Shown here in pieces: positions 6,581-18,345 of a DNA stretch of 33,201 nucleotides; the stretch's first letter is position 1, and the number at the start of each line of letters is the position of its first letter. Made by a program: the position numbers and the translations under genes. The notes beneath the pieces are model-generated. The model ran no database searches, had not been told where the DNA came from, and was given only the letters and a program-made list of their open reading frames with translations. This stretch comes from Bacteriovorax sp. BSW11_IV (GTDB lineage: Bacteria; Bdellovibrionota; Bacteriovoracia; Bacteriovoracales; Bacteriovoracaceae), in NCBI RefSeq assembly GCF_000447755.1, contig NZ_AUNE01000017.1, forward strand, positions 1-33,201, in the 5' to 3' direction.

Positions 6581-8662
6581 ATGGAAGATAAAAGTTTATC
6601 AGGAAGATTCAAACTTTTAACACAAAACTCAGATTTAGCAATTGCTGTGGGTCTGCTACTCATTTTGTGTGTAATGGTTATACCTATTCCTCCATTATTA
6701 CTAGATTTGCTATTGTCGTTAACCCTGGCAGGTTCAGTTATTATCATGTTGGTCTCTGTGTATACAAAAAGACCATTGGACTTTTCTACTTTTCCATCTG
6801 TCCTGTTAATTACAACATTATTTCGTCTATCGCTAAACGTTGCTTCTACTAGAAATATTCTATTAAGAGGGGGAAGTGATGGTACGGCCGCTGCGGGTGA
6901 GATTATCCGTTCATTCGGTGAGTTCGTTGTTGAAGGAAATTACCTTGTAGGTATTATCGTTTTTATCATCTTAGTAATTATTAACTTTATGGTAATCACT
7001 AAAGGTGCTGGTCGTGTTGCTGAAGTTGCTGCTAGATTTACATTAGATGCCATGCCAGGTAAGCAAATGGCCATTGATGCTGACTTAAATGCAGGATTAA
7101 TAAATGATGTTGAAGCTAAAAGACGCCGCGCCGAAGTTGCACAAGAAGCAGATTTTTACGGGTCTATGGATGGTGCTTCGAAGTTCGTTCGAGGAGATGC
7201 TATTGCAGGGATCATGATTACAGCTATCAATATTCTTGGTGGTATCATGGTTGGTGTTATCCAAAATAATATGGATGTTGCTAGGGCCGCTGAAACATTC
7301 ACACTACTGACAATTGGTGATGGTCTTGTTTCTCAAATTCCAGCACTTATTATCTCAACTGCTGCCGGTATTATCGCCACTAGAAATACAGGGGACGATA
7401 ATCTTGGTGAGCAAGTTGGAAAGCAATTCAAACTACACCCTAAGGCCATCTATATTGCGGCAGGGGTTCTTTTCGTATTTTCACTAATTCCAGGACTCCC
7501 AAAACTTCCTTTTATTGTTGTTGGTATTTTCTTAACAGTAATTGCTAGAAGAATTGAAAAATCTGTTGAAGTTGAGCAAGAAGAAGCGAAACTTAAAACT
7601 ACAGATGAGAAGAAAGCAAGACCAGATAATCTTGAAGACTTACTTGCTCTTGAGCTTGTTGAGTTAGAGGTCGGATATGGACTTGTTGGTTTAGTAGATG
7701 CTGAGCAAAATGGTGATCTTCTTGAAAGAATTACACATATGAGAAAGCAATTCGCTTTAGACTGGGGTGTAATCATTCCTTCTGTTAGAATTAAGGATAA
7801 CCTTGAGCTTAAGCCTGGCGGCTATAGTGTAAAAATCAAGGGGATTGAAGTAGCACGAGGAGAGTTGATGTCTGACCACTTCTTGGCCATGGATCCAGGA
7901 ACAGTCATTGAAAAAATGGACGGTATTGAAACTGTTGAGCCTGTATTTGGACTCCCAGCTGTTTGGATTTCAGAAGATCAAAGAGACGATGCTATGTACA
8001 ATGGATATACTGTAGTTGACTTATCAACAGTTATCGCAACTCACTTAACTGAAATTCTAAAAACAAATCTTCATGAGCTATTTGGTAGACAAGAGCTTGT
8101 GCGTGTACTTGATAATTTCAAAGAATCAAATCCAAAACTTGTTTCAGATCTTGTTCCAGATATCATCACTCTTGGAGCAGTGTTGAAAGTTATGCAAAAT
8201 CTTTTAAGAGAAGGAGTTTCTGTTAGAGATTTAAGAACAATTTTAGAAAACTTGGCGGAATTTGGAACGGGTGTTAAAGATCCTGATCTATTAACTGAGT
8301 ATGTACGTCAAGGATTGTTCAGAACAATTACTGAATCAATCAAGGGTGAACAAGGGGATATTCCACTATTTACACTTGATAGAAATATTGAAGAATCAAT
8401 TGCAGGAAACTTAATACAAACTGAACACGGTCAACAACTTTCTTTAGACCCAAAAATTACCCAGACGATTCTTGCCTCACTTAATGAGAAAATAGAGGAG
8501 GCAACAAATATGGGTGAAAAGATGGTAGTATTATGTTCACCTGTTATTAGAAATCACTTTAAGAGATTGACAGAAAAATTCATACCGAATCTGGTTGTTG
8601 TAAGTCATAATGAGTTAAGTCCAGATGCTAACATCAGATCATTAGGAACGGTGAGGTTGTAG
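6581..8662 (+). CDS. flhA: Flagellar export protein FlhA
   Basis: 693 residues, the normal FlhA length. FlhA forms a nonameric ring that receives substrate-chaperone complexes and uses the proton gradient. About eight membrane segments fill residues 20-320. The conserved loops are intact: FPSVLLITTLFRLSLNVAST near 76-95, and the FHIPEP-type loop KGAGRVAEVAARFTLDAMPG near 141-160 followed by KQMAIDADLNAG. The C-terminal cytoplasmic domain (about 350-693) contains VRIKDNLELKPGGYSVKIKG and LVPDIITLGAVLKVMQNLLREGVSVRDLRTI-type elements. The flhF start codon lies one base after its stop, so the two are translationally linked. Confidence 0.97.
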   Translation: MEDKSLSGRFKLLTQNSDLAIAVGLLLILCVMVIPIPPLLLDLLLSLTLAGSVIIMLVSVYTKRPLDFSTFPSVLLITTLFRLSLNVASTRNILLRGGSDGTAAAGEIIRSFGEFVVEGNYLVGIIVFIILVIINFMVITKGAGRVAEVAARFTLDAMPGKQMAIDADLNAGLINDVEAKRRRAEVAQEADFYGSMDGASKFVRGDAIAGIMITAINILGGIMVGVIQNNMDVARAAETFTLLTIGDGLVSQIPALIISTAAGIIATRNTGDDNLGEQVGKQFKLHPKAIYIAAGVLFVFSLIPGLPKLPFIVVGIFLTVIARRIEKSVEVEQEEAKLKTTDEKKARPDNLEDLLALELVELEVGYGLVGLVDAEQNGDLLERITHMRKQFALDWGVIIPSVRIKDNLELKPGGYSVKIKGIEVARGELMSDHFLAMDPGTVIEKMDGIETVEPVFGLPAVWISEDQRDDAMYNGYTVVDLSTVIATHLTEILKTNLHELFGRQELVRVLDNFKESNPKLVSDLVPDIITLGAVLKVMQNLLREGVSVRDLRTILENLAEFGTGVKDPDLLTEYVRQGLFRTITESIKGEQGDIPLFTLDRNIEESIAGNLIQTEHGQQLSLDPKITQTILASLNEKIEEATNMGEKMVVLCSPVIRNHFKRLTEKFIPNLVVVSHNELSPDANIRSLGTVRL

Positions 8663-8663
8663 G

Positions 8664-10118
8664 ATGCACGTAAGAAAATTTGAGGCAGACACGTTAGAAG
8701 AAGCCCTTCAGGACATTAAGAAACAATTGGGCCCTGACGCGATCATTTTAAAAACAGTGACAAATAAAGGGCTCAAAGGTGCCTTTAAAAAAAGTCGCAT
8801 TGAAATCACTGCCGCGATTTCTGAAAAAAATTATGTAAAGAAGTCTAGGGTTGATCATGTTTTAACTGATGATCAAAAAGATAAATTCTATAACAATAGT
8901 TCTTCATACATTTCAAATATGATTAATGATCATTCTGAAAATAAAAAAGTTTCAGATAATACTGCAAATGCAAGTTCACCTGCTTCTGCTTATGGAAAGA
9001 TGGGCCTTAATAAGCAAGTGAATTCTGTTTCAAATAAAGCAAAAGACTTCACGCAAAAAATCAAAAGTGGGCTAGATGATTTTTTGAGCAGTACTATTAA
9101 TGAAGTTGAAGAACAAGAAGAAATGACAGAGTCATTTGATGATCTAGATTTTGATCAAGATACGTTCACAGACTATAGACCAAAGTCAGAATATGCAGCA
9201 TCTCCAGTTTACAATGAAATGGCGCAACCAACTTCAAATGTAAATAGTGAAGAAGTCGAAGCTCAAAGAAAAAAGATCGATGATCTAGAGAAAAAACTTT
9301 ATCAATTAACAAAAAACTTTGAAAAGTTAGAAAGAAAAGAACCAACAGGTATTTATCAATTAAGAACGACACTTAAAAGTTTAGATATTTCTGAACATTA
9401 TATTAGAGATATTATTAAAAGAGCTGCTTTCGAGCTTTCTGAAGAAGATCAAGAAAGCCTTGATTCAGTATTTGAATTTGCTCTTAGAGAAATGCTTGGT
9501 GAAGTAAAATGTGAAATGCCAGTATTTTCTTCAGTAACTAAAGAAGAAGGTCCTGTTGTTACTATTTTCGTCTCTGAATCATCTTGTGGACAAACAAGTA
9601 TGGTACAGAAGGTCGGAGCGCTTAAAAAAGATGCTCTGATCGTTAGAACAGTAACAAATGCAGAGAAAAAAGAAGCTACATTTGCTGAAAAAATGTTTGG
9701 AATGGATGTCGTTGTTGTAGATGGAATGGCCGAAATTGCATCTGAATGTAGAAAAGCAATTGAAAGTGGTCGTTCGGTTTTTGTTGACTATAGAAATAAC
9801 AATCAAGAACTGAATGAAATCAAGAAGTTTGTAGATGGTATGAAAAGAGCTTTCAAAAATGTGGAAGTATTGATCACTCTTTCTGCTATTAATTCTGAAA
9901 TATATAATAAAAAAGTAGTAAATCGTTATGCAGAACTTGCAAACGGTTTAGTGGTTTCGAACCTTGATTTATGTCTAAACTTTGGAGCTCTATTCAATCT
10001 ATCAATTGATTTAGAAAAGCTACCATTTAAGTTTTTTGGAACTGGGGATGTCGTTCCAACTGACATTGAATCAGCAACTGCAGAGAGAATTTTAGCAGGT
10101 ATCTTTCAACTTAATTAA
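8664..10118 (+). CDS. flhF: Flagellar biosynthesis protein FlhF, apparently lacking an active GTPase site
   Basis: 484 residues. FlhF is an SRP-family GTPase that marks the cell pole for flagellar assembly in polar flagellates. The N-terminus is typical (MHVRKFEADTLEEALQDIKKQLGPDAIIL), followed by a disordered charged linker (about 60-220) and a helical N domain. The G domain can be followed to the end, but its motifs are altered: the P-loop position reads SESSCGQTS (304-312) instead of GPTGVGKTT, with Q310 at the invariant lysine; the DTYR position reads TVTN (329-332); DTAGR reads DYRNN (375-379); TKLD reads SNLD (432-435); and the closing GQ.VP reads GTGDVVP (459-465). GTP hydrolysis is therefore unlikely. 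Position after flhA and before flhG supports the name. Confidence 0.9.
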   Translation: MHVRKFEADTLEEALQDIKKQLGPDAIILKTVTNKGLKGAFKKSRIEITAAISEKNYVKKSRVDHVLTDDQKDKFYNNSSSYISNMINDHSENKKVSDNTANASSPASAYGKMGLNKQVNSVSNKAKDFTQKIKSGLDDFLSSTINEVEEQEEMTESFDDLDFDQDTFTDYRPKSEYAASPVYNEMAQPTSNVNSEEVEAQRKKIDDLEKKLYQLTKNFEKLERKEPTGIYQLRTTLKSLDISEHYIRDIIKRAAFELSEEDQESLDSVFEFALREMLGEVKCEMPVFSSVTKEEGPVVTIFVSESSCGQTSMVQKVGALKKDALIVRTVTNAEKKEATFAEKMFGMDVVVVDGMAEIASECRKAIESGRSVFVDYRNNNQELNEIKKFVDGMKRAFKNVEVLITLSAINSEIYNKKVVNRYAELANGLVVSNLDLCLNFGALFNLSIDLEKLPFKFFGTGDVVPTDIESATAERILAGIFQLN

Positions 10119-10154: not shown

Positions 10155-11057
10155 ATGTCGACAAAGAACGTCAGTGACTGGTTGTTGTCACAAAATCGCT
10201 ATCAACGAGCGGAAAAATGCGTTGACAAAAAAATTGAGGGGAAAGCAAAAACCATTTCCATTACAGCTGGAAAGGGTGGAGTAGGAAAGACATCTGTGGC
10301 CATTAAGGTTGCAAAGAGTCTCGCCGATGCCGGTTACAAGACGTTATTAATCGATTGTGACTTCAATCTTGCTAACACAGCAGTTAAACTAGGCCTACCA
10401 ATTAATGATGATTTCGCATCATTGATCATGGGGACAAAATCATTCGAAGAAGTTCTTCATAGAGATGGTCAATTTCATCTACTAAGTGGATGTAATGGAA
10501 ATCTAGACTTATTCGAGAATAGATTAGAGTACGATAAAATAATTCTTGATATTCTAGTAGGGCATGAGGATGAATATGACTTTATTCTCCTTGATAGTCC
10601 TGCAGGGATACAAAAAGATACATTAACGATTAATGCATATAGTGATTATCGTTTTGTTGTTGTTACTCCAGATAAATCATCAATCACAGATTCTTATTCA
10701 TTGATGAAAATACTTAATACTAAGTATGGAGTTAAGACAAATCACCTTTTAGTAAATAAAGTATCAAATCTTGCCCAGTATCAAAAAATAGTTAAGACAC
10801 TGAGTGAAACTGTCGATCACTTTCTCAAAGGACGTGTAAACGTACTTGGAAGTATTGAATACGAAAACAAAGCTGTCGATAAGTTTGACCAGATTCTTTT
10901 AGGGTCGGCAAATTCTTCCATTCACAAAAATTTCATTAAAGTGGTCAATAGGTTCACCGAGGAGAACATTAGTACTTTATTCTCTGATGAGAAATTTGAA
11001 GTACCTTTCGCGACTACCCACTTTGGGAAACAGGAAGTTCAACCAACAATTTGCTAA
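10155..11057 (+). CDS. flhG: Flagellar number regulator FlhG (MinD-like ATPase)
   Basis: 300 residues. FlhG is a MinD/ParA-type ATPase that limits flagellar number and normally stimulates FlhF. The deviant Walker A motif GKGGVGKTS (39-47) is intact, with both lysines; the A' motif LLIDCDFNLANT (64-75) and Walker B FILLDSPAGI follow. The C-terminus has no clear amphipathic MinD-type helix. The DQAxxLR motif that in characterised FlhG proteins activates FlhF is not recognisable in the N-terminus, which instead reads SDWLLSQNRYQRAEKCV. The ATG has GGAGACAGG upstream. It is 36 bases after flhF and 10 before the sigma factor gene. Confidence 0.93.
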   Translation: MSTKNVSDWLLSQNRYQRAEKCVDKKIEGKAKTISITAGKGGVGKTSVAIKVAKSLADAGYKTLLIDCDFNLANTAVKLGLPINDDFASLIMGTKSFEEVLHRDGQFHLLSGCNGNLDLFENRLEYDKIILDILVGHEDEYDFILLDSPAGIQKDTLTINAYSDYRFVVVTPDKSSITDSYSLMKILNTKYGVKTNHLLVNKVSNLAQYQKIVKTLSETVDHFLKGRVNVLGSIEYENKAVDKFDQILLGSANSSIHKNFIKVVNRFTEENISTLFSDEKFEVPFATTHFGKQEVQPTIC

Positions 11058-11067
11058 GGAGCGCTGA

Positions 11068-11853
11068 ATGTCTTCTCTTACTAAGAAATTAAAGAACCTA
11101 AAAGATTACAGATCAACAGTTGACCCAAAAATTAAAGATCAGATTGTTGTTGAGTATGCGCCACTTATTAAATATATTGCGCAAAAAATTGCATCAAGAC
11201 TTCCGGCCAATATTGAGCTTGATGATTTAATTTCTTGTGGTGTTATTGGACTAATGGATGCAATTGAAAAATTCGATCCATCTCGTGATAATAAATTCAA
11301 GACATATGCTGAATTTAGAATTCGTGGTTCAATTCTTGATGAACTTAGAGCGCAAGACTGGGTTCCAAGAAGTATTAGAGAGAAAGCAAAGTTAGTTGAA
11401 AAAGCATATCAAAAGCTAGAAGCCGAGTATGGTAGACCAGCTACAGATGAAGAAATGTGTGAAGAGTTACAAGTAACTCAAGAAGAATTTCATGAGTTAC
11501 TAAGTAAGTCTAAATCAGTTTCTCTATTAAATATTGACGATACAGCGGCCTTCAATAGAGGCGATAAAAAGCTTTTTGCTGGCCTGATGGAAGAGAGTAA
11601 GCACGCAAATCCTTTCTCAGCTGTTAGTAGTAAAAATATGAGAGATAAGATTAAAGAAGGAATTGCTCAGCTCCCTGAGAAGCAAAGACTTGTTCTCTCT
11701 TTATATTATTTCGAAGATCTAAACCTTAAAGAAATTGGTCAGGTATTAGATGTTACTGAATCGCGTGTTTCACAACTTCACACGCAGGCGATTATGAAGT
11801 TGAAGGCAAAACTTAAAAATGTAGTTGAATCACCGGAAGATATGGCGAGCTAA
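11068..11853 (+). CDS. fliA: Flagellar sigma factor FliA (sigma-28 family)
   Basis: 261 residues. This sigma factor directs RNA polymerase to late flagellar promoters. Regions are in order: region 2 (about 25-95) with VVEYAPLIKYIAQKIASRLP, DDLISCGVIGLMDAIEKFDP and FKTYAEFRIRGSILDELRAQDWVPRS, a signature of the FliA/WhiG group; region 3 (about 100-165); and region 4 (about 195-252) with LPEKQRLVLSLYYFEDLNLKEIG and the helix-turn-helix VTESRVSQLHTQAI. A strong AAGGAG site precedes the start. Genes ahead of it are early and middle flagellar genes. I found no FlgM anti-sigma gene in the window. Confidence 0.95.
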   Translation: MSSLTKKLKNLKDYRSTVDPKIKDQIVVEYAPLIKYIAQKIASRLPANIELDDLISCGVIGLMDAIEKFDPSRDNKFKTYAEFRIRGSILDELRAQDWVPRSIREKAKLVEKAYQKLEAEYGRPATDEEMCEELQVTQEEFHELLSKSKSVSLLNIDDTAAFNRGDKKLFAGLMEESKHANPFSAVSSKNMRDKIKEGIAQLPEKQRLVLSLYYFEDLNLKEIGQVLDVTESRVSQLHTQAIMKLKAKLKNVVESPEDMAS

Positions 11854-16663: not shown

Positions 16664-17200
16664 ATGAAAAGCAGTCAAATAAAAGGCAAACGAGTTTTGT
16701 TACATTTTTCGGATAACTCTAAAGACGAAAAGCAGTCAAAGTTATTCGTAAAATATTTAAAACAATCTCTACCAGCGCTGGAGAATTTTATCTTCAGCAA
16801 GAATCTCATCATCGCCAAAAAGAAAGTTTCGCAAGTTGAAATTTCTTTGTCGCTTTGTGGCAATGCGAAGATTCGTTCTTTAAATAAAGAATATAGAGGA
16901 AAGGACTATGCTACAGATGTGCTTTCTTTCCAACTGCACGATTCACTCAGAACGGATGAAGACTTCTTTTTTTTCGACAAGATTTTAAATCTAGGAGATA
17001 TTATTATCTCACGCGAAGTGGCCAAGAAGCAGGCCCGTGAGTTTGAGATTACTTATGAGCAAGAGCTTTTGCATTTGTTTGTTCATGGTCTTCTTCACGT
17101 CTTAGGTTATGATCATGAAATTTCAGATGCTGAAGAGAAGATCATGAATAAGTTCGAAGAGCAAATTGTCGCAAAAATTTATAAAGATATAGGGTTTTAA
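16664..17200 (+). CDS. ybeY: Endoribonuclease YbeY
   Basis: 178 residues. YbeY is a zinc-dependent RNase that matures 16S rRNA and takes part in ribosome quality control. The catalytic HxxxHxxxxxH pattern is intact as HGLLHVLGYDHE near residues 145-156. The preceding core (SLNKEYRGKDYATDVLSF) is typical. The N-terminus is somewhat longer than usual. AAAGG lies shortly before the ATG. prfB begins one base after the stop, so prfB is translated from the same message. Confidence 0.95.
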   Translation: MKSSQIKGKRVLLHFSDNSKDEKQSKLFVKYLKQSLPALENFIFSKNLIIAKKKVSQVEISLSLCGNAKIRSLNKEYRGKDYATDVLSFQLHDSLRTDEDFFFFDKILNLGDIIISREVAKKQAREFEITYEQELLHLFVHGLLHVLGYDHEISDAEEKIMNKFEEQIVAKIYKDIGF

Positions 17201-17201
17201 A

Positions 17202-18345
17202 ATGAACGACGCTATAAAAATAGCCTTACAAGAAAAAAAATCATCGATAAAGAAATACGTTCCGAAGTTAGAGCACTTGCGGAGGTCACTTTGAGGTCGA
17301 AAAAAAGCATGCTCGATTAGAAGAGATTGCAACAATGGAGGCCATGCCAGGCTTTTGGGACGATAACGAAAATGCGACTCGATTACAAAAAGAAAAGAAT
17401 ATTTTAGAAGAAGTTGTAGAGACCTATGGGCAATTACAAGAACTCTATGATGAGTTTGCTGTTCTTGTAGAATTTGCTGAAGAAGAAGGTGATGAAGCTT
17501 CTGGAACTGAGGCCATCGAAGTTTTTGATAAATTTCTCGATAGCTTTTTGAAGGCCGAACAAAAAGTATTACTGTCAGACGAAGTTGATCCAAATAATGC
17601 CATAGTTAGTATCAATGCTGGGGCAGGTGGAACTGAGTCTTGTGACTGGGCAAGCATGTTGCAAAGAATGATCGTAAGATGGTCTGAGCATAAAGGATTT
17701 AAAATTCAACTTCTTGATGAGCAAGATGGTGATTCCGCCGGAATCAAGTCTTGTACTATGCTTATTCAAGGAAATTTCGCTTATGGATTGTTGAAGTCTG
17801 AGACAGGTGTTCATCGTCTAGTGCGCATCTCTCCATTTGATTCTGCTGGCAGAAGACATACTTCATTCAGCTCAATCTTTGTTTCTCCTGAAATTGATGA
17901 CAATATTGAAATCGAAATCTTAGATAAAGATATTAAAATTGACGTTTACCGTGCTGGTGGTGCTGGTGGACAGTCGGTAAACACGACTGACTCTGCTGTT
18001 CGTATTACACACATGCCTTCAGGGCTTGTTGTTACTTGTCAGAACGAACGCTCTCAGCTGCAAAATAAACTTCAGGCCTTTAAAGTTCTTCGTTCAAGAC
18101 TTTATGATCTTGAAATGGAAAAGAGAAAAGCGAAAGAAAGTGAAGTTGAAGCGGGCAAAAAAGATATTGCTTGGGGAGCACAGATTAGATCCTATGTTCT
18201 TCATCCTTACAAGCTAGTTAAAGATCACAGAACTAATTTTGAAAGTAGTCAGGCCGAAAAAGTTCTCGATGGAGACCTCGATGGTTTTATGGACGCTTAT
18301 TTAAGATTTGAAGTGGGTAAGCAATTAGAGAATACTGAGTCTTAA
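17202..18345 (+). CDS. prfB: Peptide chain release factor 2, with programmed +1 frameshift
   Basis: The protein is made from two joined frames: 17202-17291 (30 codons, ending CTT), then, skipping T17292, 17293-18345, giving about 380 residues. RF2 releases finished proteins at UGA and UAA codons. The site CTT TGA G, with an internal GGAGG three bases before CTT, matches the known RF2 self-regulation signal: scarcity of RF2 lets the ribosome slip past the UGA. The main part has PGFWDD, the recognition tripeptide SPF (210-212) and the catalytic GGQ (255-257). The lolC-like gene starts on the last base of the stop codon. Confidence 0.97.
17281..17295 (+). promoter_or_regulatory. RF2 programmed frameshift site
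   Basis: GGAGG (17281-17285), tca, CTT (17289-17291), TGA (17292-17294), G. The internal Shine-Dalgarno-like element is three bases from the slippery CTT, the same spacing as in E. coli prfB. Without a shift the product is a 30-residue peptide; with a +1 shift GAG is read next. Confidence 0.95.

Follow-up and report, generated by a model that had tools for sequence, protein, structure and literature searches.

FlhF of the Bacteriovoracia is probably a pseudo-GTPase kept by selection

The FlhF protein encoded in a flagellar gene cluster of Bacteriovorax sp. BSW11_IV lacks the residues with which a canonical FlhF holds the phosphates of GTP. The window, by which we mean the whole stretch of DNA that was analysed (33,201 nucleotides of contig NZ_AUNE01000017.1), carries flhF at 8664..10118; this gene and the features of the flagellar cluster described below lie on the + strand. 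We propose that the FlhF orthologue of the Bacteriovoracia probably became a pseudo-GTPase once, in the common ancestor of the clade, was kept by selection, and serves as a nucleotide-independent adaptor. Judged from the aligned motifs, the loss of canonical catalysis in the clade FlhF is well supported, and it is likely that the protein binds no nucleotide at all; as for mechanism, we infer that the best candidate is an adaptor that links FliG to the pole independently of nucleotide. Bacteriovorax-like predators have a single polar flagellum.

The flhF open reading frame is intact (484 residues), and domain matches in the window place it in the order fliL-M-N-O-P-Q-R-flhB-flhA-flhF-flhG-fliA, so that the original prediction of an intact gene within an operon holds for a flagellar cluster from fliL to fliA. 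Directly 5' of flhF lies flhA (6581..8662; FHIPEP domain, E 6e-273, matched at G000:C17:6662-8629). It is followed by flhG (10155..11057), which encodes a MinD/ParA-type ATPase with an intact GKGGVGKT (AAA_31 and CbiA matches, alignment), and by a gene for a FliA-type sigma factor (11068..11853; Sigma70_r2, r3 and r4 matches). The order flhA-flhF-flhG(-fliA) is that of FlhF orthologues. Further along, the window also holds prfB (release factor 2; 17200-18345), the main frame of which opens at 17335 with ggaggtcactttgag upstream and CTTTGA at 17289; this ggaggtcactttgag resembles the customary signal for programmed frameshifting and is ordinary.

Searches with the window protein alone found no match, either in a scan of the genome contigs, where the family alignment as query did match, or with phmmer against PDB sequences. 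The NCBIfam model for FlhF, TIGR03499, matches residues 1-286 (E 3.9e-20), its 73 bits lying below the equivalog cut-off of 174.15; the best TIGR03499 matches of the family genomes have mostly E 1e-16 to 1e-24. We read the sub-cut-off score as a reflection of divergence, and the assignment of descent from FlhF rests on hhalign and the tree. Against canonical FlhFs from its own phylum, the family profile gives a 455-column alignment (hhalign probability 100, E 2.9e-50), and this full-length homology includes the B-N-G architecture with an N-terminal FliG-interaction domain (FID). Because this profile-profile alignment spans 455 columns, the window gene is a clear FlhF orthologue despite its far-diverged G domain. 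Against PDB sequences, the family profile matched SRP54 (3dm5, E 2.4e-6) and, through the FID, the FlhF chain 9en1.

The original prediction read altered motifs as SESSCGQTS (304-312), DYRNN (375-379), SNLD (432-435) and GTGDVVP (459-465), and these letters stand where it placed them. The family alignment used here has 112 rows (93 distinct sequences) from the Bacteriovoracaceae/Halobacteriovoraceae. In the P-loop (9573..9599), hhalign pairs the canonical GPTGVGKTTT with the family's SESSCGQTSM, and the invariant lysine is replaced by Gln310 (9591-9593), as predicted, in all 112 rows. Ser304 is likewise present in 112/112 and Gly309 in 111/112, well beyond what chance would give; with E/D305 in 105 and [ST]312 in 108 rows, the family has a strongly conserved P-loop pattern of its own, S-E/D-x-S-x-G-Q-[ST]-[ST]. 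The region of motif II (canonical DTYR.GA; residues 324-339, 9633..9680) is lost, being shortened and variable: the canonical LDTYKV pairs with RTVTNA (the window reads TVTN), columns 328-332 are gapped and unconserved, and majority identity over 324-352 is 0.42, with no family motif there. In G3 (FVDYRNN, residues 373-379, 9780..9800), the canonical VDT.GRS pairs with VDYRNNN; Asp375 is kept (111/112), position 376 is Y, L or V, and both T.GR and the Gly of DxxG are lost. In G4 (residues 432-435, 9957..9968), TKLDE pairs with SNLDL; Asp435 is kept (111/112) and the Lys lost, position 433 being H, N or Y in 102 of the 112 rows and K in 3. The G5 closing loop (FFGTGDVVPTDIE, residues 457-469, 10032..10070) is largely kept: TTGQRVPED pairs with GTGDVVPTD, Thr460 occurs in 110/112 and Gly461, Pro465 and Asp467 in 111/112 each, and the Gln of GQ..P is replaced in the family mostly by E, P or D.

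Since the profile-profile alignment pairs the same stretches, the motif assignments are not an artefact of the eye. In two loci a regular expression seemed to pick out GKE[ST], but that match lies at another place in the protein, and the residue at the aligned position is Q. The earlier claim of alteration in every motif needs narrowing: the losses comprise the lysines of the P-loop and of TKxD, the entire DTYR motif, T.GR of G3 and the Gln of GQ..P, but the Asp residues of G3 and G4 and most of G5 remain. Neither the G1 pattern GxxxxGK[ST] with its Lys nor the motif II pattern DTxR is found, and on these alignments we are dealing with an FlhF orthologue that falls outside the definition of an SRP-type GTPase.

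The predicted structure agrees with the assignment to FlhF. AlphaFold2, run on 39 family sequences, gives a confident FID and a confident NG domain; within the latter, the G domain has pLDDT values that are for the most part near 90. The predicted NG domain (residues 224-484, 9333..10115) has the SRP-GTPase fold: VIA-align against FlhF structures 2px0, 2px3 and 8r9r gives Z 22.4-22.5 and rmsd 2.6-3.0 over 241-242 residues, with 2px0 (B. subtilis FlhF with GMPPNP) at Z 22.4 and rmsd 2.6 over 242 residues and 8r9r (S. putrefaciens FlhF with GDP) at Z 22.5; FtsY structures tie. The fold was thus rightly called recognisable, and as modelled it is an intact SRP-type NG fold; the fold alone says nothing about activity. 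No part of the protein is better conserved than the FID (residues 1-60, 8664..8843), with a mean majority identity of 0.83; the G5 region (0.77) and the SAIHSE region (0.75) come next. The linker has pLDDT below 50 for residues 100-192 and is variable and poorly conserved apart from two short motifs, YG...LNK.V (residues 110-119, 8991..9020; Y110 and N116 in 109/112 each) and LDDFLS (residues 137-142, 9072..9089; L137 in 109, D138 in 108, F140 in 110 and L141 in 109 of 112). Many haemagglutinin matches of the family profile in PDB were discarded as chance coiled-coil matches to the linker region.

What the pocket could still hold was judged from the alignment and secondary structure. In S. putrefaciens FlhF, P-loop residues Lys254, Thr255 and Thr256 hold the alpha and beta phosphates, Asp388 and Glu389 bind the base, and Gln414 binds the ribose (PMC10910532). 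Mapped on the lost and kept residues, these contacts indicate that the protein has lost the side for phosphates and catalysis, whereas the base side is partly left. The conserved guanine side (Asp435 in 111/112, T460 in 110/112, G461 in 111/112) speaks against the adaptor reading, as a nucleotide or another ligand may still bind there, and it is a ground for an alternative in which FlhF has lost catalysis yet retains guanine-nucleotide binding (to GDP, GTP or an alarmone like ppGpp), the binding itself being the signal. SRP GTPases do bind (p)ppGpp, and the structural search with the family FlhF matched two such structures, 7o9f and 7o9h; in Vibrio, moreover, GTP hydrolysis by FlhF is dispensable and binding apparently is not (PMC6092412, PMC7226244). 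However, the counterpart of the alpha/beta-phosphate lysine (Lys254 of S. putrefaciens, PMC10910532) is Gln throughout the family, E, P or D mostly stands in place of the G5 Gln that contacts the ribose, no arginine loop is left to touch the beta phosphate, and the kept guanine-side residues may have structural roles. We consider this alternative unlikely.

Is the gene simply decaying? Such a reading, in which FlhF is no longer needed, could appeal to the long stem branch of the family (1.89 changes per column) and to the poorly conserved linker. Against it, flhF is present in nearly all family genomes, invariant residues sit at the very motif that was altered, and in 13 pairs of related species the G-domain dN/dS is 0.005-0.065, near the FID value (counted by the Nei-Gojobori method, with saturation in some dS values). 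Purifying selection on the G domain is strong. Where flhF is gone, flhA is missing too in the six genomes of the family that were searched for it, none of which matches the window FlhF; two of the six are 91-99% complete and the others less so. We therefore regard decay as very improbable, and the prediction of a selected change is supported by a state fixed in the family and by a gene present in 119 of 129 family genomes.

These 119 family-type FlhFs were found by family profile search, and Gln310 recurs in divergent members checked later, in fact wherever the motif was read. The family FlhFs, among them the named records of Halobacteriovorax marinus and Bacteriovorax sp. DB6_IX (Bacteriovoracaceae/Halobacteriovoraceae, class Bacteriovoracia), form one clade (support 100/99) on that long stem; FlhFs from the rest of the phylum's sampled families keep GK[TS]. 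Two complete or nearly complete family genomes, G026 (99%) and G028 (91%), have no FlhA and no FlhF, so that the flagellum was probably lost secondarily in these members.

A canonical FlhF encoded elsewhere would change the picture, and an artefact of alignment or assembly that hides one is the alternative to be weighed here. An SRP54-domain search of the window's own genome and of complete family genomes found no second, canonical FlhF. The own genome has two strong SRP54-domain matches and two weak ones that cover about 40 residues around Walker A only. Its one SRP_SPB match shares the reading frame of one of the strong matches, which is therefore Ffh; the other is most simply FtsY. Family genomes at least 90% complete have two SRP-type GTPases (Ffh and FtsY), a few have one and a single one has three, which contig ends explain, while most flagellated outgroup genomes show three strong SRP54-domain matches. 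Family genome G005, with three PF00448 matches, seemed at first to encode a canonical FlhF; two of the matches are fragments located where contigs end, and the simplest reading is a single gene that was split. Within the window FlhF itself, a Pfam search placed neither the SRP54 G domain nor any other P-loop domain above cut-off, and no other SRP-type site that might hold an intact GTP pocket was found. With the same state in 93 distinct sequences, named records included, and two SRP GTPases only, the artefact is scarcely credible.

The same SRP54-domain search found neither Ffh nor FtsY in some other members of the phylum: in families f8 and f12, in single f15 and f19 genomes, and in genera g145 and g153 of f11. 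Such genomes (e.g., G066, G127, G073, G050, G057) are 90-98% complete, some in 8-30 contigs, and several keep FlhF. The nine that were tested have no SRP_SPB domain and no 4.5S RNA, both of which are present in G000, G005 and G099. This looks like a coherent loss of the whole SRP pathway in those genomes and would be striking if true; stretches missing from the genome set may also account for it.

The protein shares with canonical FlhF, the third SRP-type GTPase (TIGR03499; 2px0, 2px3, 8r9r, 9en1), the B(FID)-N-G order, the NG fold and the position between flhA and flhG, and differs in the P-loop Lys-to-Gln change, the missing motif II and the loss of T.GR in G3 and of Lys in G4. The NG fold, the profile match to SRP54 3dm5 and a GTG-type closing loop recall Ffh and FtsY; unlike these, it has no catalytic motifs and no M domain, and both are encoded separately in the genome. 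There is a parallel in partner and motifs with family f6 of the same phylum (Bdellovibrio-type, a genus name that we infer), where FlhG also lacks DQAxxLR and FlhF has partly altered G3 and G4 (DFAGL, TSLD), whereas GKTS and TDT[YF]K are kept, so that f6 FlhF probably still binds nucleotide. Across the f6 FlhFs (L040, L062, L063, L072, L075, L077-L079), GK[ST] and DT.K are kept, G3 reads DFAGL or DMPGL, and G4 reads TSLD, TGLD or THLD; by sequence these may be an intermediate stage of GTPase erosion. The FlhFs of f3 (L043, L044, L047) are about 375 residues long, with an intact GKTT, no recognisable closing loop and a very long branch (3.09), and f3 FlhG starts right at the ATPase core. Outside this protein family, the pseudo-GTPase domains of p190RhoGAP (PMC6523970, PMC9840978) likewise use a GTPase fold as a binding module with no GTPase cycle; they are Ras-like and eukaryotic, whereas the window FlhF is SRP-type.

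Our analysis goes beyond the original prediction in two respects: judging by the aligned sequences, the change in FlhF is clade-wide, and FlhG is changed too. Stimulation of FlhF by canonical FlhG depends on the glutamine of the N-terminal DQAxxLR helix of FlhG (PMC12826062). None of the 66 family loci has DQA in the FlhG N-terminus, and the DQAxxLR activator motif is thus missing. At its place (10170..10190), alignment, locus scan and prediction point to an N-terminal helix with an invariant W9-L10: a W-L motif occurs near the FlhG N-terminus in 65/66 family loci, and W9 and L10 never vary across an alignment of 37 sequences, which was built from W-L-bearing FlhGs and is to be read beside the 65/66. 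The helix is predicted for residues 6-12 (block mean pLDDT 62, low to moderate confidence) and is followed by a linker; the C-terminal end of FlhG (residues 273-300, window positions 10971-11054) is predicted to be disordered. The deviant Walker A motif GKGGVGK[TS] is complete, with G39, K40, G41, G42, V43, G44 and K45 invariant. DQAxxLR is present in the FlhGs of families f7, f8, f9, f19 and f20 of the phylum and absent from f6 and f3 as well as from individual f11, f17 and f24 members, and Pseudomonas FleN has been reported to lack it (PMC12713375). Because its loss is not unique to the clade, it fits a pseudo-GTPase but is no proof of one.

The conserved P-loop pattern of FlhF and the FlhG helix also feed a further alternative, that the pocket has been re-tuned to accept another ligand or has turned into a groove in which a peptide docks, for example the FlhG W-L helix. 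A loop in which Ser304 and Gln310 are invariant and residues 305 and 312 nearly so implies a positive function, and the invariant W9-L10 co-occurs with it. This alternative overlaps with the explanation that we prefer and does not exclude it; as a separate explanation, re-tuning seems to us somewhat unlikely.

FlhF is known as a GTP-binding switch; binding is needed in the species tested, and hydrolysis is dispensable in some (PMC6092412, PMC7226244, PMC12826062). A point against the adaptor comes from Vibrio, where those mutations in the GTPase motifs that are believed to block GTP binding weaken flagellation or eliminate it; the majority of the motif mutants are insoluble (PMC6092412). In Shewanella, the FID is sufficient for binding to FliG, and NG-HubP binding is independent of nucleotide (PMC11236974). 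For a bridge from FliG to the pole that works without nucleotide, the parts retained by the family would suffice. A search for the HubP/FimV landmark (TIGR03505) gave no match anywhere, controls included, and hence carries no information on absence. In the nucleotide-independent adaptor that we favour, the N-terminal FID of FlhF would bind FliG (with FliF) and the NG domain would bind the polar landmark, and another form of regulation would stand in place of the GTP-driven dimer-to-monomer release. FlhF may be permanently in one conformation, with timing supplied by the FlhG ATP cycle, C-ring assembly or protein level. Release and timing would have to be new, and a candidate is the FlhG ATP cycle with the W-L helix, the FlhG ATPase probably docking this new N-terminal helix where the DQAxxLR helix formerly docked. 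The fullest version of this proposal, a class-wide SRP-family pseudoenzyme in which FlhF is free of nucleotide, the former active site docks the FlhG helix and the switch runs on ATP only, is one that we put forward tentatively, at a little under even chances.

In the open-access literature, we found no published P-loop-less FlhF, whether under Bacteriovorax, under pseudo-GTPase or in a 2025 review of the FlhF/FlhG switch, and no report of a pseudo-GTPase of the SRP type. Because the phosphate site is lost and the protein retained, the function of the clade FlhF cannot rest on a canonical GTP cycle. Partial motif erosion and several losses of the FlhG activator motif in other families of the phylum offer an evolutionary path to this state. 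The removal of the phosphate site with the protein kept, in a whole class, amounts to a natural separation-of-function experiment, and it makes testable the GTP-independent roles of the NG domain (landmark binding, FliG recruitment) and the control of flagellar number without GTP-driven release.
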